Source: an uncultured Spirochaetaceae bacterium (GTDB lineage Bacteria; Spirochaetota; Spirochaetia; Sphaerochaetales; Sphaerochaetaceae). From it: DNA of 64,000 bases. Where the stretch lies: NCBI GenBank assembly GCA_944389025.1, contig CALXKU010000003.1:1-64000 (forward strand), read 5' to 3'. Every line of letters starts with the position of its first letter. The stretch's first letter is position 1. The notes beneath the pieces were generated by a model that saw nothing but the letters and a program-made list of their open reading frames with translations, was not told the DNA's origin and made no database searches. Below are positions 268 to 8,629 of this stretch, in pieces. The position numbers were made by a program, and so were the translations under genes.

Positions 268-606
268 ATGTACACACCCGATTATGATGAGTATTATTCT
301 CTCAAAAGTTATGCTGACAGATTCGTTAGCGATAGCGATGATGTGATTAAAGTGTATCTCTCGCGTCCTACGACTCTTAATCTTATTACGCTTTGGGAGC
401 TTAGGAATGGAAATGATATGTTCATAGCATCTCTTATGGAGAAATATCATGAGAGGGCGATGGCAGGGGAGGAGTTCGATGTCGGTGAGCTCATCAGTGC
501 GCTCAATCTCTTATCTGTATTCATTGAGAATGGTGACATAAGAGCCCATATCGACATCTATAATGATTTCGTAGCTTATCTAACTGAGAATGGAATAAAC
601 ACTTAA
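268..606 (+). CDS. Hypothetical protein, 112 aa
   Basis: A soluble, acidic, mostly helical-looking protein (MYTPDYDEYYSLKSYADRF...) with no signal peptide, membrane segment or family motif that I recognise. No Shine-Dalgarno sequence precedes the ATG. Instead TGA-TAAAAC lies six bases upstream (253-261), a weak match to the leaderless promoter pattern seen elsewhere in the window. Its stop overlaps the stop of the convergent TSCPD gene. Codon use looks normal, and the competing minus-strand frame at 169-450 is less protein-like. The function is unknown. Confidence 0.55.
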   Translation: MYTPDYDEYYSLKSYADRFVSDSDDVIKVYLSRPTTLNLITLWELRNGNDMFIASLMEKYHERAMAGEEFDVGELISALNLLSVFIENGDIRAHIDIYNDFVAYLTENGINT

Positions 607-857
607 GCCTTTAGCGCCTCTTTAAGAGCCTTTGAAAGCTGATCAGGGCAGCTGGTGTTCTTATAACCACATGTGTTCCCTTCCAAAATAGCTGCAATCT
701 CGGCTGCATCTTTTCCTTCGCATAGAAGTCCGATTCCTTTGAGGTTGCCATTGCAGCCACCGATAAACTGTAAATTATGAATTCTGTTCTCATCATCGAG
801 AGAGAATAGGATCTCTCTTGAGCATGTCCCTTTGGTCTTATAGCTGTATTCTTTCAT
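603..857 (-). CDS. TSCPD domain-containing protein (TIGR03905-like), 84 aa
   Basis: The protein carries the signature NTSCPDQL near residues 67-74, preceded by a glycine-rich FIGGCNGNLKGIG stretch and a CGYKNTSCPD cysteine pair. This matches the small stand-alone TSCPD family, which resembles a C-terminal module of some ribonucleotide reductases; its own function is unknown. The length is usual for the family. No Shine-Dalgarno sequence precedes the ATG at 857. A TATTCT hexamer lies seven bases upstream (865-870, minus strand), so initiation may be leaderless. The stop codon overlaps that of the convergent gene at 268-606. Confidence 0.85.
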   Translation of the reverse strand: MKEYSYKTKGTCSREILFSLDDENRIHNLQFIGGCNGNLKGIGLLCEGKDAAEIAAILEGNTCGYKNTSCPDQLSKALKEALKA

Positions 858-1328
858 AGCAGAGAGAATACAACTTTAATTGAATTCAATAAATAGGGGG
901 ATTATTGCTCGTTCGTAGCTGAATGATAAGTATAAAAACTTGAATCATTAGTTGCGAGTAACATTACGCAGTGATTGTTCCTGTATGTTACCATCACTCT
1001 CTACCGCATATTAAAACCATATGCGCTTTGCATCTTCAAGGTTCCTTCTTGCCACATGCGGGACGGATTGAACTCATTGTTTTTGACAATCTATATTCTT
1101 GCAAGGAAGATTCATATGGTAATTAATGTCCTTTTCCATTTAACTATCCCATTATAGGGCATTTTTTATCAAACCATAGTGAGAGTAGCTGTTTTGAAGA
1201 TTAAAAAAATATCGGCTGACAGTAATAAATCTTGACATTGGGGGGGGCAATTGTGGTAGCACTATGGGTGGGTAGTGGCTTGATATATTTTTATTTGCTT
1301 CTGCCTAAAAGACAAAAAAGGAGAAGAA
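858..1328. other. Intergenic region, 471 bases, AT-rich
   Basis: No convincing gene is visible. A 60-codon plus-strand frame at 975-1157 begins with TTG, lacks a ribosome-binding site and is rich in hydrophobic and cysteine codons, so I reject it. The left end carries the putative leaderless promoter of the TSCPD gene. The right end holds the leader and candidate promoter of the lipoprotein gene at 1329, including an eight-G tract at 1240-1247. Confidence 0.6.
1232..1262 (+). promoter_or_regulatory. Candidate promoter with 8-G tract in the spacer
   Basis: A perfect -35 hexamer TTGACA at 1232-1237 is followed by two Ts, eight consecutive Gs (1240-1247) and a weak -10 candidate TAGCAC at 1257-1262, giving a 19-base spacer. 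Losing one or two Gs would bring the spacer toward 17-18. It lies 66-97 bases upstream of a surface lipoprotein start. The -10 assignment is uncertain; TATATT at 1284-1289 is an alternative but has no good -35. Confidence 0.4.
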
Positions 1329-3536
1329 ATGAGAAAACACGCTTTAAATCTGTTTTTAATCATCTTATTATCTTTGTTGTTGTTTGGCTGTTCCTCTGGA
1401 GATGACACGTGGTCAGGAATGGCTTATACAAGTGATGACGGATTTCTTACGCTTACAGTTAGTGACGATGGAAGTTATTTGCGAGTGGCAAACAATACTA
1501 CTGATTCTATGGGGAATCCCATATCCTTGCCGGCTGAATATTCGATTCCAGCTTCCTATAAGGGAATTCCTGTAAAGGAAGTTCTTATATGGAATAGTGA
1601 TGTTGTAAAAATAAGTATTCCTTCTTCAGTCGAATCTTTGGAAGTTGAAAATTGCCCTGAACTGATGAGTATGAACATCCCAGGCAATTTGAAGGAAATT
1701 AGCATATACAATGCTCCAAAACTGGCAGGCGACTTGTATTTACCTGATTCTCTCCAAGTCGTTGGACGCTTAGATTATGTAGGGTATTCAAGTATAAGAT
1801 TTGGTGAGAACATATCAGAAGTTGGGTCTTATATTTTTCTTCTTAGATACTGTGAAAATCTTGAAAAAGTCTATATCCCATTCACAAACTATGATGAGTC
1901 AAGTGGGTGGTATGGCTGGTCAACATATCTTCCTGATTCTTGCGAGGTTTTGTATGATGGAGAAGCCAACGAGCCATCATTTATAATCTCGGAAGACAGA
2001 AGTTGCTATATTTTCACGGGATTTGATTCTGCTACAACAACCCTTGAAGAAGTAGTTGTTCCTTCAACACATAATGGTCTCCCGGTTTCGATAATCGGAT
2101 CGAACGCTTTTAACGGTTGCGAGACTATAAAAAGCGTGACAATTCCTTCATCCATCAAGGAAATCCATTCTAGCGCCTTTGAAGGATCTGGTATTGAAAC
2201 AATTACTATTCCATCAACTGTTGAAATGGTGGGGGAGTATGCTTTCTTAAACTGCACGTCTCTTTCAGATGTCGAGCTTCAGGAAGGATTCAAAAATATA
2301 TCCATTGGAATGTTTAAGGGATGTACAAGTCTTGAGACTTTGGATCTTCCTTCTTCCTTGGAAACAATTGAAGAGGGAGCTTTTTCAAACAGTGGAATAA
2401 GAGAGATTGTTCTTTCTGAAGATATCTCCTCTGTTGGGTATGATGTTTTCTCAGATTGCAATAATCTTATTTCTCTGACTGTTCCCGTCAATTCCTTTGG
2501 AACCCGTGTTAGTGGATGGACCGGCTGGAGTGATGGCATAAATACAAATACGTGCAAGATTAACTATTGCAATGGAGTTGATGACCTTTCTTATGTCATC
2601 TCCAAAGACAGGACATATTACTATTGTGTTGGTCTTCCTTCAGATTCAACAAAGACAACTGCGACTATTCCTGCAACACATAACGGACTACCTGTGGTTG
2701 TCGCATCTGACTGTATGTATAGCGTTGACAGCATTGAGGAGATAACTATAGAGAATGGAGTCGAGAAAATCGAGAGTGGGGCTTTTGAATATTGTGATAA
2801 TCTAAAGGTCATAAGGATTCCTTCAAGTGTAGTCGAGGTTACAGGTGCTATCGGGGATTACAGCCAGAAACTTACCGATGTGTATGTAGCGTGGACAGAA
2901 GGAAACATGCCTTCTGGCTGGAGCCCTTATTGGGATTATGACTTCAATGATTATAAGGTGACAATACATTATGGAGAGAATACTCCTGATCCAGAACCGG
3001 GTACAGATCCAGATGAGCCTGAGCCTGAACCGGGGCAGCCTGGAGAAATCAACGAAGAGATCAAGCCCTATGCAGATGAGATTCTCCTGAAGATCATGGG
3101 AAATGTTCAGAATGCCGGTACGTATAGGGAAGAGAACGGAAGAGCAAGTTTTACATATTCCGGACCTTTCGGCGGAGTTGATATTGTCTCTCCTGATTTC
3201 GGAGATGAACTGACAGTTGTATCCGCAACAGTGAATCTCACCTTCTACGGCAATGTTGCAAGTGAGGAGAGTGCAGGAAGCGGGGAGGCTGTATTCACAC
3301 CAGATACCTTCATTATTTCCACAGACTCTCCTATCCAGATGATGTATATGTCTGGAACAACATTTGAGACATGGTACCTGACAATTGATGAGATCAGTGG
3401 AAACGTTTCAGGTGTTAAAGTATTGCAGATTGATACTGGAGTAGAGGAGCAGCTGGGAGTCGAAACAGAAGCGGATGCAGCTGTTCTGGAAGCAACCACT
3501 ATCAGAGGATCTATAGAAAAACAAAGTTATATGTGA
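1329..3536 (+). CDS. BspA-family leucine-rich-repeat lipoprotein, 735 aa
   Basis: The N-terminus is a lipoprotein signal peptide (basic MRKH, hydrophobic core, lipobox ending at Cys21). Residues from about 60 to 560 are BspA-type (LRR_5) repeats with phrases such as FNGCETIKSVTIPSSIKEI and ENGVEKIESGAF. A motif with GW-type residues and a following THNGLPV block recurs: SSGWYGWSTYLPDSC, then SGWTGWSDGINTNTC, then a degenerate SGWSPYWDYDFND. A Pro/Glu-rich linker (around residues 556-575) leads to a C-terminal beta-rich domain of about 160 residues that I do not recognise. BspA-like proteins act in adhesion and host-matrix binding in other bacteria; that role is inferred here. An AAGGAGAAG site precedes the ATG. 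Composition is more AT-rich than the housekeeping genes. Confidence 0.9.
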   Translation: MRKHALNLFLIILLSLLLFGCSSGDDTWSGMAYTSDDGFLTLTVSDDGSYLRVANNTTDSMGNPISLPAEYSIPASYKGIPVKEVLIWNSDVVKISIPSSVESLEVENCPELMSMNIPGNLKEISIYNAPKLAGDLYLPDSLQVVGRLDYVGYSSIRFGENISEVGSYIFLLRYCENLEKVYIPFTNYDESSGWYGWSTYLPDSCEVLYDGEANEPSFIISEDRSCYIFTGFDSATTTLEEVVVPSTHNGLPVSIIGSNAFNGCETIKSVTIPSSIKEIHSSAFEGSGIETITIPSTVEMVGEYAFLNCTSLSDVELQEGFKNISIGMFKGCTSLETLDLPSSLETIEEGAFSNSGIREIVLSEDISSVGYDVFSDCNNLISLTVPVNSFGTRVSGWTGWSDGINTNTCKINYCNGVDDLSYVISKDRTYYYCVGLPSDSTKTTATIPATHNGLPVVVASDCMYSVDSIEEITIENGVEKIESGAFEYCDNLKVIRIPSSVVEVTGAIGDYSQKLTDVYVAWTEGNMPSGWSPYWDYDFNDYKVTIHYGENTPDPEPGTDPDEPEPEPGQPGEINEEIKPYADEILLKIMGNVQNAGTYREENGRASFTYSGPFGGVDIVSPDFGDELTVVSATVNLTFYGNVASEESAGSGEAVFTPDTFIISTDSPIQMMYMSGTTFETWYLTIDEISGNVSGVKVLQIDTGVEEQLGVETEADAAVLEATTIRGSIEKQSYM

Positions 3537-4386: not shown

Positions 4387-5973
4387 ATGAGAAAGTTCAT
4401 AAGATGTCACTTGAAAAAACATGGAATTTCGGCTTTGATTGTTTCTCTTTTTCTCATTGTTACTTTTTCCTCCTGTGGTCAGGCGGAACAAGACAAATAT
4501 GAGGATATGACGGGAGCAAATGTTACCATGTATGGGGATTGGCAGTCGGATCCTGTTACTTTTACAGATCGCTATGATGAGACATTTACCAATACCAAAA
4601 TTCTTCTTTCGTTTTCTGAGGATGAACTCGTGATTAAAAAAGGAGAATATGTTTCCAAGGCACATCCTTATACAAGGAATGGCGTCACTTTATCGATTAT
4701 GAATCCAGAAGATATCGGAGGCTTTGATATGTATTATCCATTCCCATTAGAATTCAATGGAAATACATTCAAGACCGATTTGTCTGCACTAAATTTCCTT
4801 AAAGGTATTACCAGTGTACGATTTACAAAAATAGCTGATGAACCATCTTTAACTGCAGCAACAGAAGATCAGCAACATAAGCATGACTGGGAACCTGTTT
4901 TAGAGGTAGCTGCAGATTGTGAAAATCCTGGCAATGTTTTCTATTATATTTGTTCCTCATGTGAACAGAAGACGTTAGATCCTTTTGCTTCGGATATTGA
5001 ATATGCTACGGATGAGGATGTTATTATACCGGCTCTTGAACATCTCTTGGAAACTGAGATTATCAGAGAGGCTGAGTATTGCGATCGTAATAGCACACCT
5101 GGATTAAGGATACAGAAATGTATGCGCGAAGGATGCGATTATTCTTCTGGTGAGGAGGAATACTATCTTGATCATGAAATCGATCCCGTGCAGAAGGATA
5201 TGATAGCTCCTACATGTGAGAATTATGGATATGAGCCATACTATGAATGTAATAGATGTAAAGGAAAATTCTTGTCCCCAGACGAAACTGGATATTCAGA
5301 CGAATATTCCCTTCGAATTAGCCCTACAGGGCACAGTTGGGCATTTAGTGACAGTGGGGAAGGTTACTATCATAATATCTATTGTTTAAATGAAAATTGT
5401 GACTACAAAGGTACAAATTTCCCTGGAAATCATGAATATGATACAGATATGAAGCATTGTAAATTCTGTGGGGCAGAGGAAACATATCAGGTTATGCTTC
5501 ATAATTGTTTATGGGCTAATTATGATACGGAAGCAAGTTATTATCATGGTCCTCTTCCAGAGTATTTTGCAGCTCCGGAATATGACTGTGCAGGAGAGTA
5601 TACGGACTCAGATTATGATACCTATGAGAAATCTGATCTTATAATTTCACTTGCAGAAGATCCTTTTACAGAACATGCAGACACTAAAGATATAAAAGGT
5701 ATTTTCATTCCAGACTCATATATCATTATAGAAAAAGACACATTTACAGCTTTTTCCTCGTTAACTGACATATATTTTGAGGGAAGCCAGGAAGAATGGA
5801 ATAAAATAAAAATTAAGAATTTGCGTAAGAGTCCTACCTCCATTATAGAGTATACAATAGGGGAGTATGGTATAAAAGGCATATTAGGAAATCAGGTTGA
5901 AAGAGAAAATGAGATTACAGTTCACTTTAATTTTCCTCGAGAGCAATTTTATTCTGAAATCAGATGGCAGTAA
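4387..5973 (+). CDS. Lipoprotein with repeated Cys/His modules and a BspA-like C-terminus, 528 aa
   Basis: A basic N-terminus, hydrophobic core and cysteine at position 30 (TFSSC) form a lipoprotein signal. Residues 31-150 are an unrecognised beta-rich domain. Residues 164-362 are a ladder of Cys/His modules: H164/H166-W168, C178, C189-x2-C192, H219; C232, C245-x4-C250, H263; C277, C288-x2-C291, H316-W318; C333-x4-C338, H349, C358-x2-C361. Similar H-x-W...C-x2-C ladders occur in lipoproteins of gut bacteria and spirochaetes, where their role is unclear. Residues from about 420 carry a BspA-type leucine-rich segment (FSSLTDIYFEGSQEEWNKI). The start follows GAGGAG at 4376-4381. Composition is AT-rich like the other lipoprotein. 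Surface exposure or metal binding is inference. Confidence 0.85.
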   Translation: MRKFIRCHLKKHGISALIVSLFLIVTFSSCGQAEQDKYEDMTGANVTMYGDWQSDPVTFTDRYDETFTNTKILLSFSEDELVIKKGEYVSKAHPYTRNGVTLSIMNPEDIGGFDMYYPFPLEFNGNTFKTDLSALNFLKGITSVRFTKIADEPSLTAATEDQQHKHDWEPVLEVAADCENPGNVFYYICSSCEQKTLDPFASDIEYATDEDVIIPALEHLLETEIIREAEYCDRNSTPGLRIQKCMREGCDYSSGEEEYYLDHEIDPVQKDMIAPTCENYGYEPYYECNRCKGKFLSPDETGYSDEYSLRISPTGHSWAFSDSGEGYYHNIYCLNENCDYKGTNFPGNHEYDTDMKHCKFCGAEETYQVMLHNCLWANYDTEASYYHGPLPEYFAAPEYDCAGEYTDSDYDTYEKSDLIISLAEDPFTEHADTKDIKGIFIPDSYIIIEKDTFTAFSSLTDIYFEGSQEEWNKIKIKNLRKSPTSIIEYTIGEYGIKGILGNQVERENEITVHFNFPREQFYSEIRWQ

Positions 5974-6397: not shown

Positions 6398-6405
6398 TCA
6401 GATAG
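6322..6405 (+). CDS. Possible small protein, 27 aa
   Basis: ATG at 6322 is preceded by GAGAGGAGAAAA, one of the best ribosome-binding sites in this part of the window, and opens a 27-codon frame (MEYINRVFYWSDY...) that ends with TAG at 6403-6405, eight bases into the 3' end of the convergent MerR gene. It is short, aromatic and charged and resembles no family I know. It may be a genuine small protein, or the surviving 5' end of a gene cut off by a rearrangement. Confidence 0.3.
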   Translation: MEYINRVFYWSDYLSDTEREWADFMLR

Positions 6406-7210
6406 TTTTGATCTGTTCTATTTTGATACTTATTTTCGTGATGAAATTGTCCTCATCTTCTTCTACAAGGTATGCAACGGGGTATTCCTCGTAGCAGGGG
6501 CCTGTCACCTTGTAACCCATCTTCTCTGCTTCTCTGACTACGCTCCTGTTCCATTTCTGAGTCTCACTCCAGTTGCCTTTATGATAGGAGACGGCATAAA
6601 GTCCTTTTTCCATCACGGCATTCCTGATCTTTCCTCTTCTGGAAAACAGGTATGACCTAGTCGTGTAATCCTGTAGGTCGAGGCTTTCAAGATCGAACTT
6701 CAGACCGGCCATCTCAATCCATGGGATCTCGTGTTTTGTCATGAAAAGCTCATACGGCTTGTCAAATGAGAGGAGGGCCGAAGAGTAATCGCCCTCATCG
6801 CTCAGACTTATTGGAATCTCTCCGATTTCTACAATCTCAATTTTTCCGTATTCCGAGCTTGCTGCTGTTATTATCTCATCGCTTGCGTTTCTGAGCAGTT
6901 TCTGCTGTTCCCTGAGTTTCCTGATTTCCTGATCGATATTGTTCACAGCTCCGCTTGCAAGGGCTAGGAATGAGGCGGCTGTTCTTTCTTTTGTGAACTC
7001 TTTGATGTTCTTGATTGGCAGTCCAAGCTCTCTTAGGTTTATGATGGTATCAAGCAATGGAAGCTGGTTTGTGGAGTATGATCTGTAATTGTTCTCTCTT
7101 CTCTCATCGGCTTTGAAAAGGCCTATCTTGTCATAATAGAGGAGAGTGTCCCTTCTTATGCCGAATATCTTCGCCATCTCGCTTATGGTGAGTTCGTGTT
7201 TTACAGGCAT
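6398..7210 (-). CDS. MerR-family transcriptional regulator, 270 aa
   Basis: The N-terminal winged-helix of the MerR family is clear (ELTISEMAKIFGIRRDTLLYYDKIGLF, then YRSYSTNQLPLLDTI), followed by a coiled-coil linker around residues 80-115 and a C-terminal domain of about 150 residues resembling the GyrI/BmrR effector-binding fold. I start it at ATG 7210 because AAGGA lies seven bases upstream; a longer frame beginning at TTG 7240 would lie inside the operator. The gene is divergent from a MATE efflux pump 57 bases away, and the intervening DNA has the 19-base spacer and central dyad typical of MerR-activated promoters. It probably senses a hydrophobic or cationic compound and activates the pump, as BmrR does for Bmr; the ligand is unknown. 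Confidence 0.9.
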   Translation of the reverse strand: MPVKHELTISEMAKIFGIRRDTLLYYDKIGLFKADERRENNYRSYSTNQLPLLDTIINLRELGLPIKNIKEFTKERTAASFLALASGAVNNIDQEIRKLREQQKLLRNASDEIITAASSEYGKIEIVEIGEIPISLSDEGDYSSALLSFDKPYELFMTKHEIPWIEMAGLKFDLESLDLQDYTTRSYLFSRRGKIRNAVMEKGLYAVSYHKGNWSETQKWNRSVVREAEKMGYKVTGPCYEEYPVAYLVEEDEDNFITKISIKIEQIKTI

Positions 7211-7220
7211 GTGTACATCC

Positions 7221-7251
7221 TTGACTATAGAGTAACTCAATAGTTTAGATT
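7221..7251 (+). promoter_or_regulatory. MerR-type promoter and operator for the MATE gene
   Basis: TTGACT (-35, 7221-7226) and TAGATT (-10, 7246-7251) are separated by 19 bases, longer than the usual 17 and characteristic of MerR-activated promoters. A dyad sits in this spacer: ACTATAGAGT (7224-7233), a central A, and ACTCAATAGT (7235-7244), matching at nine of ten positions. Such a dyad is where MerR dimers bind and untwist the promoter. The transcript leader would be about 10 bases, with a weak GGA before the ATG at 7268. Confidence 0.75.
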
Positions 7252-7267
7252 ATACAATTGGACAAAT

Positions 7268-8629
7268 ATGAGTGAGCAGAAAGATTCCGAGAAGCTATTT
7301 ATTTCTACAAAACCCGTACGTTTGTTTTTTAAGGCGTCGATTCCCGGAGCCATCGGGATGCTCGCTTCTTCCACATATTACCTGACGGAGACGATATTCG
7401 TTGGCAGGATGCTGGGAGAGGATGCTTTTGCCGGTCTCAATCTTGCAATGCCATTCATTCTGATCGCATTCGCTCTTGCGGATCTTGTCGGAGTAGGCTC
7501 TTCCGTTCCGATTTCCATCAAACTGGGGCAGGGGAAAGGGGAGGAGGCAAACAAGGTATTCTCCCTGGCGGTCGTTCTCATATTCCTTTTCGGGCTTTTA
7601 TCCGGGGTTTTCTTCTACATAGCCGCACCTTTCATCTTCCATGCGATGGGAGCCGATCCTGTTATTGCTGAGCAGGCTACCGAGTATATGAGAGTCTATG
7701 CGATATTCGCACCGTTTGCATCAATGTCTTTTGCTTTCGATAACTACACGAGGATAAGCGGAAAGATAAACAGGAGCATGGGGGTCAACATATTCATGAG
7801 CGTGATGTGTTTTACTTTCCAGCTCATATTCCTTGTTCTCATGCGTCTGCCTATCGCATTCGCAGCTCTTGCATCATCTCTTGGCATGCTCATAACAACG
7901 AGCATATACATGTATCCGTTCATAAGAGGTAAAATGCTTCTTCATTTCCGCCGCCCAGAGTTCAATATGCATATGATCAAAGTCATTATCGCAAATGGCA
8001 TCCCATCATTTCTCAGCAACATGTCCGGGCGCATCGTATCAATTGTGATGAATGCGGCGCTTCTTGCTGTCGGTGGTGCGACTGCCGTCTCCATATATGG
8101 AATACTTATGAGCATCGACGGTCTTGTGCTACCGACTATGTACGGCCTGTGCGACAGCCTTCAGCCTGCGGTCGGGTATAACTGGGGAGCTGGCAGGAAG
8201 GACAGGGTAAGAGCGATTGAAAGATGCTGTTATACGGCATCGATAACACTCTGCATGATAGCATTCCTTGTTCTTATTCTCTTTCCGGAAGGGACGGCAT
8301 CTCTCTTCGTTTCCGAGTCGGAGGCGATAATAAGGGGTGCCCATATGGCGATAATCATATTCGCATTCAACTATCTTATAAGATGGTTGAATTTCTCCAC
8401 CCAGAGTTTTTCCGCCTCGATAGGGCGTCCTCTCTATGCGACAATGATCTCGTTAAGCCAGGCTTTTGTCTTCCCTCTCGTTTTCATTCTCACGCTTTAT
8501 CCTCTTGGGCAGAACGGACTGCTTGCCAATATTACGGCATCCACATTCGCAACCGCCGTTGTCGCTGCGATAATTCTTACCAGGCTTATGCGGATTGTGA
8601 GCGATAAGAGCAGGGAAGGAGCGAACTAA
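7268..8629 (+). CDS. MATE-family multidrug efflux transporter, 453 aa
   Basis: A 12-helix inner-membrane protein of typical MATE length, beginning with a short cytoplasmic segment and the family pattern FKASIPGAIGMLASSTYYLTE-like first helix, an internal repeat after about residue 230 (NGIPSFLSNMSGRIVSIVMNAALL) and the conserved YGLCDSLQPAVGYNWGAGR segment near residues 291-309. MATE proteins export cationic drugs or metabolites in exchange for Na+ or H+. The divergent MerR gene and shared operator suggest inducible expression. It is not the polysaccharide-flippase type. The substrate cannot be read from sequence. Confidence 0.92.
   Translation: MSEQKDSEKLFISTKPVRLFFKASIPGAIGMLASSTYYLTETIFVGRMLGEDAFAGLNLAMPFILIAFALADLVGVGSSVPISIKLGQGKGEEANKVFSLAVVLIFLFGLLSGVFFYIAAPFIFHAMGADPVIAEQATEYMRVYAIFAPFASMSFAFDNYTRISGKINRSMGVNIFMSVMCFTFQLIFLVLMRLPIAFAALASSLGMLITTSIYMYPFIRGKMLLHFRRPEFNMHMIKVIIANGIPSFLSNMSGRIVSIVMNAALLAVGGATAVSIYGILMSIDGLVLPTMYGLCDSLQPAVGYNWGAGRKDRVRAIERCCYTASITLCMIAFLVLILFPEGTASLFVSESEAIIRGAHMAIIIFAFNYLIRWLNFSTQSFSASIGRPLYATMISLSQAFVFPLVFILTLYPLGQNGLLANITASTFATAVVAAIILTRLMRIVSDKSREGAN

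Follow-up and report, generated by a model that had tools for sequence, protein, structure and literature searches.

A poly-G tract between the -35 and -10 of a BspA-type lipoprotein gene is a probable phase-variable switch and belongs to a genus-wide promoter design in uncultured spirochaetes

Background

Can a run of eight Gs between the -35 and -10 elements of a surface lipoprotein gene act as a switch in an uncultured spirochaete? The question is raised by a window of 64,000 nucleotides (the whole stretch of DNA that was analysed), for which a sequence-only reading had proposed that changes in tract length make a BspA-type, adhesin-like protein phase-variable, as at poly-G promoters of Treponema pallidum. 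Among spirochaetes, switching by poly-G promoters has mainly been described for a few outer-membrane genes of T. pallidum, an organism that is hard to grow. In that species such tracts, most of them G9, differ in length in vivo and alter the activity of the promoter (PMC7864442).

Layout of the promoter and its lipoprotein gene

The -35 hexamer TTGACA (1232..1237, + strand) is separated by TT (1238-1239) from the G8 tract (1240..1247, +), the proposed slipped-strand switch. It is followed by CAATTGTGG at 1248-1256 and then by the hexamer TAGCAC (1257-1262), a weak -10 that matches TATAAT at three of six positions and is preceded immediately by TGTGG, giving a putative extended -10 region TGTGG-TAGCAC (1252..1262, +). 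The spacer (1238-1256) measures 19 nt, and a spacer of 17 nt would require G6, which was seen in no species examined. The arrangement that had been described from the letters alone at 1232-1262, with TTGACA, two bases, G8 and a weak -10 at 19-base spacing, is confirmed by the sequence, and a homopolymer of at least about eight lies between -35 and -10, as in promoters of the porA/tp0126 type. A standard sigma-70 scan of the window at 16-18-nt spacing did not list the site at 1232-1262, because its spacing is 19.

The tract is the sole G8 in the window. By itself it is unremarkable, since shuffled windows give 1.45 +/- 1.82 such runs; what goes beyond chance is the combination of TTGACA with the G tract and the conservation of both, rather than the G8 alone.

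The promoter sits 66 bases upstream of a gene (1329..3536, +) that is preceded by a Shine-Dalgarno sequence recognised from its letters, AGGAG (1319..1323, +), 5 nt before the ATG at 1329. The product of 735 aa (MRKHALNLFLIILLSLLLFGC) carries a lipobox (LFGC, with Cys21) and BspA-type leucine-rich repeats (PF13306, LRR_5; E 4.9e-48) and is predicted to be a surface-type lipoprotein. The BspA-type assignment thereby holds, and the adhesin role suggested for the protein derives from its LRR_5 domain. On the other side, a divergent gene with a TSCPD domain (603..857, - strand; PF12637) is a syntenic neighbour, which adjoins the poly-G promoter also in three further species (G021, G026 and G038).

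Downstream in the window, a second lipoprotein-like gene (4387-5973; lipobox FSSC) has neither a G tract nor a Pfam match. Further on (6398-8629), a MerR/GyrI-like regulator and a MATE-type efflux protein, both so named by sequence appearance, form a divergent pair that is probably drug-responsive. A search for RNA families found none in the window.

The promoter element is conserved in six species

When the upstream region was searched against the genus, a stretch of 51 bp matched at 82-85% identity over the tract, in species where similarity has been lost in the surroundings. An element of about 45 bp is found as a single copy upstream of a lipoprotein gene in each of six species from two genera, namely the window's own genome (G000), G021, G026 (CALXYM01), G038, G041 (CASFJV01) and, in a sister genus, G063/CASFTW01. 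A second copy was sought in the window's own genome (2.31 Mb, 39 contigs) and none was found.

The common pattern reads TTGACA-NN-G8or9-YARNTGTG(G/C)TAGNNCTA, with GGTAG 8-10 nt further on. TTGACA is invariant (6/6), TGTG(G/C)TAG is kept in all six species, and the -35, the tract, TGTGGTAG and CTA stand at fixed distances from each other throughout, which supports the reading of this region as a promoter. Within the core from -35 to CTA, the sole length difference is the G tract itself (8, 9, 9, 8, 9 and 9 G), and lengths in the window's clade are 8 or 9 only. Between species, the tract is therefore the length-variable part of a conserved promoter, a statement on variability that rests on these 8/9 G differences and on copies within other congeneric genomes (see below). 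The encoded lipoproteins in G021, G026 and G038 are now 27-36% identical or too divergent to be matched; the promoter is therefore better conserved than the protein.

In unrelated bacteria carrying TTGACA-NN-G6-7-TGTGGTAG (G6-7-N3-4-TGTGG), a TAGNNT -10 lies mostly exactly 17 nt from the -35. This speaks for an extended -10 at TGTGG-TAGCAC, with the implication that the G8 of the window places it 2 nt above the usual optimum.

Two further features were considered around the promoter. An imperfect dyad, CACTA (1260-1264) N8 TAGTG (1273-1277), lies over the expected start point (1260..1277, no strand assigned); it measures 5 bp in three species, is a perfect 7 bp in G041, is degraded in G038 and in G063 has 4 bp with one compensatory change. 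It might possibly serve as an operator, and we list it as a tentative candidate. AT-rich inverted repeats (1202-1213 and 1282-1293) flank the promoter and could have suggested an invertible element; this reading was rejected because the repeats are missing from most orthologous elements.

Poly-G promoters of lipoprotein genes across the genus

The pattern TTGACANNG6 occurs at 10 sites in the genus versus 2 for the reversed control. With the looser pattern TTGACAN{0,12}G8, sites were present in 38 of 48 congeneric genomes, and the reversed-pattern control gave 0 in every genome; the C-tract version was found at 8 sites in 8/48 genomes, so that tracts on the wrong strand are rare. At 73/81 distinct sites, the tract is followed within 0-2 nt by a TANNNT hexamer, mostly as TAG(A/C/G)(C/A)T, which makes a TAG-type -10 the consensus of the set. 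Spacers cluster at 18-19 nt, the commonest being 19 nt.

Lipoprotein genes lie downstream of 82/89 poly-G promoters versus 0/24 canonical promoters in the same genomes (TTGACA-N16-18-TATAAT; Fisher p ~1e-18), a comparison in which the two classes were sampled with different patterns and lipoboxes were called by a simple pattern and hydrophobicity rule rather than a trained predictor. The design recurs at hundreds of lipoprotein promoters among the relatives of the window's species. Few of the encoded proteins match Pfam, and those that do show LRR_5, beta-helix, pectate-lyase-like adhesive, GLUG or Big_3 domains.

The main form in the genus (N7-11 + G8-12 + TAGNNT) shares with the window promoter the TTGACA, a G tract of at least 8, a TAG-type -10 and a lipoprotein target. 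In the main form, however, the tract abuts the -10, whereas in the window element it abuts the -35 and is followed by YARNTGTGG and a downstream dyad. Judged by its sequence, the window element is a variant of the genus-wide design.

The window's own genome holds tracts of 8-10 upstream of lipoprotein genes at three other loci, L002 (C2:46291-46300), L016 (C15:51650-51657; TTGACA-N10-G8-CATACT) and L018 (C20:36742-36750). In five other genomes (G009, G011, G013, G014 and G016), many poly-G promoters with near-identical leaders are found at contig ends, which suggests that promoter and signal peptide form a repeated cassette joined to different lipoproteins.

Tracts were also seen outside promoter spacers. 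At L015 (G000:C13:65453-65460) and L024 (G000:C38:6406-6413), a G8 or C8 follows closely on the lipobox cysteine within the coding sequence of a lipoprotein; a slip at this position would throw translation out of frame, and both are candidates for translational phase variation. At L006 (G000:C4:90553-90560), L014 (G000:C8:82578-82585) and L057 (G001:C23:236160-236175), G8-G9 tracts lie about 3-8 nt from a possible start codon and could act as variable Shine-Dalgarno sequences.

A second family and a cultured species

The same architecture was detected in another family of the same class (f24), again with a mode of 9 G and with a spacing of 15-16 nt instead of 19. One genome of this family (G301) holds ten poly-G promoter sites, of which seven or more precede lipoprotein genes, and two of its near-identical promoters carry G9 and G10. 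Its chromosome of 2,731,853 bp is equal in length to that of Treponema succinifaciens 6091T (PMC3156407), a cultured species, to which it is taken to belong. As it is an isolate genome, the worry about metagenome assembly is reduced here.

Tract length varies between near-identical copies

Among promoter pairs within a genome whose flanks are at least 95% identical, tract length differs in 24/35, against a mismatch rate of 1.2% per flank base. Where the flanks are identical, 14 of 23 pairs differ, by 1-3 G, and more than one tract length is held by 11 of the 13 copy clusters. These pairs are non-independent, and since many are found at the ends of contigs, a single physical locus may be represented on two contigs; such duplication, however, would add equal lengths and not different ones. 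Each species is represented by a single genome in the collections; most of these are metagenome assemblies, whose tract lengths may contain assembly errors.

When tracts from G4 upwards were counted, 87/106 sites fell in the range of 8-12 G; nine was the commonest length, and 4-7 G were seldom seen. No correlation links tract length to the remaining part of the spacer (rho 0.09), so that the tract does not compensate for that part and total spacing runs from 14 to 23 nt; the compensation predicted for a static spacer is absent. A length peak at 9 regardless of geometry is, on these sequences, what an equilibrium of slippage would give and not what a fixed spacer requirement would.

A few tracts are interrupted (G4TG5, G5AG4 and G4TG4, at sites in G017, G038 and G022). 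Such tracts would slip poorly and several keep a 19-nt spacer; these promoters are possibly locked. In G022, the promoters L230-L234 carry mostly G11-G12 and hence spacers of 21-22 nt, as if the whole set had drifted longer.

Alternative explanations

In the main rival explanation, the lipoprotein genes form a regulon whose G-rich spacer is a constant feature, structural or protein-binding, that is read by a regulator or by RNA polymerase itself, with the tract held at 8-10 and no switching. The sharp mode at G9 with other lengths rare, the interrupted tracts of G017 and G038 that retain their 19-nt spacer and the coherent class of target genes all agree with it. A fixed feature is hard to reconcile, however, with identical-flank copies of unequal tract length, with uncompensated total spacing or with the same modal length at a different spacer length in another family; a binding site could also accommodate tracts of 4-7 G, yet these are rare. 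On balance we consider this explanation unlikely.

A real promoter with a selectively neutral tract is improbable as well. Here slippage would occur, but expression would be set elsewhere, by the dyad at 1260-1277 or a regulator, or would merely be fine-tuned. The dyad and the GGTAG 3' of the -10 are indeed kept in most species; in T. pallidum, moreover, expression of tprL in vivo does not follow G number cleanly, and at other tpr promoters the tract acts jointly with a CRP homologue (PMC7864442). If the tracts were neutral, however, they would not be found preferentially on one strand, inside the promoter spacers of lipoprotein genes, in dozens of species. Coincidence would require a start elsewhere and a G8 without any role, and we give it almost no credence: chance would suffice to give the window a G8 on its own, and the -10 is weak, but the whole element is conserved in six species, whereas TATATT at 1284, which the sequence-only reading had offered as an alternative start, is kept only in the closest one (G021) and was rejected as a promoter.

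Discussion

We think it likely that the window promoter is phase-variable by the mechanism known from porA and tp0126, with the G8 as a contingency switch in the spacer of a BspA-type lipoprotein promoter. In a population, replication slippage would add or remove G:C pairs in the tract; each change would alter the distance between -35 and -10 (19 nt at G8) and, presumably, transcription, so that cells of one population would come to carry different levels of the lipoprotein. The window locus would be one of a large set of such lipoprotein promoters in the genus.

The closest known counterpart is tp0126 of T. pallidum, encoding an OmpW homologue: it too is a spirochaete promoter with a poly-G between -35 and -10, where tract length sets the spacing and 17 nt is the optimum (PMC7864442). 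It differs from the window promoter in its target, an outer-membrane barrel, and in being a single locus; the window promoter, in turn, has its tract 2 nt after the -35, a 19-nt spacer at G8 and an extended -10. The porA promoter of Neisseria meningitidis likewise has a poly-G in the spacer, and its transcription depends on a 17-nt optimum, according to the summary given in PMC7864442; it belongs to an unrelated organism, drives a porin gene and is also a single locus. Tracts of about 7-11 G (mostly 9 at tprL) that vary in vivo lie 5' of the surface-protein genes tprE/G/J/L, of which tprE/G/J are transcribed at 8 or fewer G (PMC7864442). At tprL, unlike in the window, the tract overlaps the -10 and leaves the -35/-10 spacing unchanged (PMC7864442). 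With its LRR_5 lipoprotein gene and a tract beside the -35, the window promoter falls outside the tpr promoter family.

The Treponema-like logic proposed for this locus is thus strengthened by the genus-wide set of lipoprotein promoters and by the length differences between near-identical copies. Against it stands the spacing of 19 nt, and not 17, that G8 gives. By analogy with tp0126 and porA, the ON length would be 17 nt, i.e. G6, and the assembled G8 state would then be OFF or weak. Alternatively, the ON length may be 18-19 nt; 19 nt may be a permissive, working spacing, because it is the commonest in the genus and several interrupted, probably non-slipping tracts keep it.

More broadly, we lean towards the view that a stereotyped TTGACA-N-G8-12-TANNNT promoter lets gut spirochaetes from at least two families switch each member of a large set of unrelated lipoproteins on its own. 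A literature search, with most subscription papers outside its range, found no description of such a set of lipoprotein poly-G promoters. While the mechanism itself belongs to a known type, its scale, its specificity for lipoproteins and its occurrence in commensal spirochaetes of the gut, one of which can be cultured, are new as far as the searched literature shows.

The recurring slippery design suggests that many surface proteins are randomly switched on and off in these bacteria. It appears as a stereotyped lipoprotein regulon in most members of a genus of uncultured spirochaetes, and the same design is present in T. succinifaciens, which is apathogenic and culturable and has a complete genome. 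If it switches, it would amount to a combinatorial system of surface variation in commensals: with about ten such loci per genome, a population would contain numerous combinations of surface lipoproteins, and this would apply to commensals and pathogens alike.
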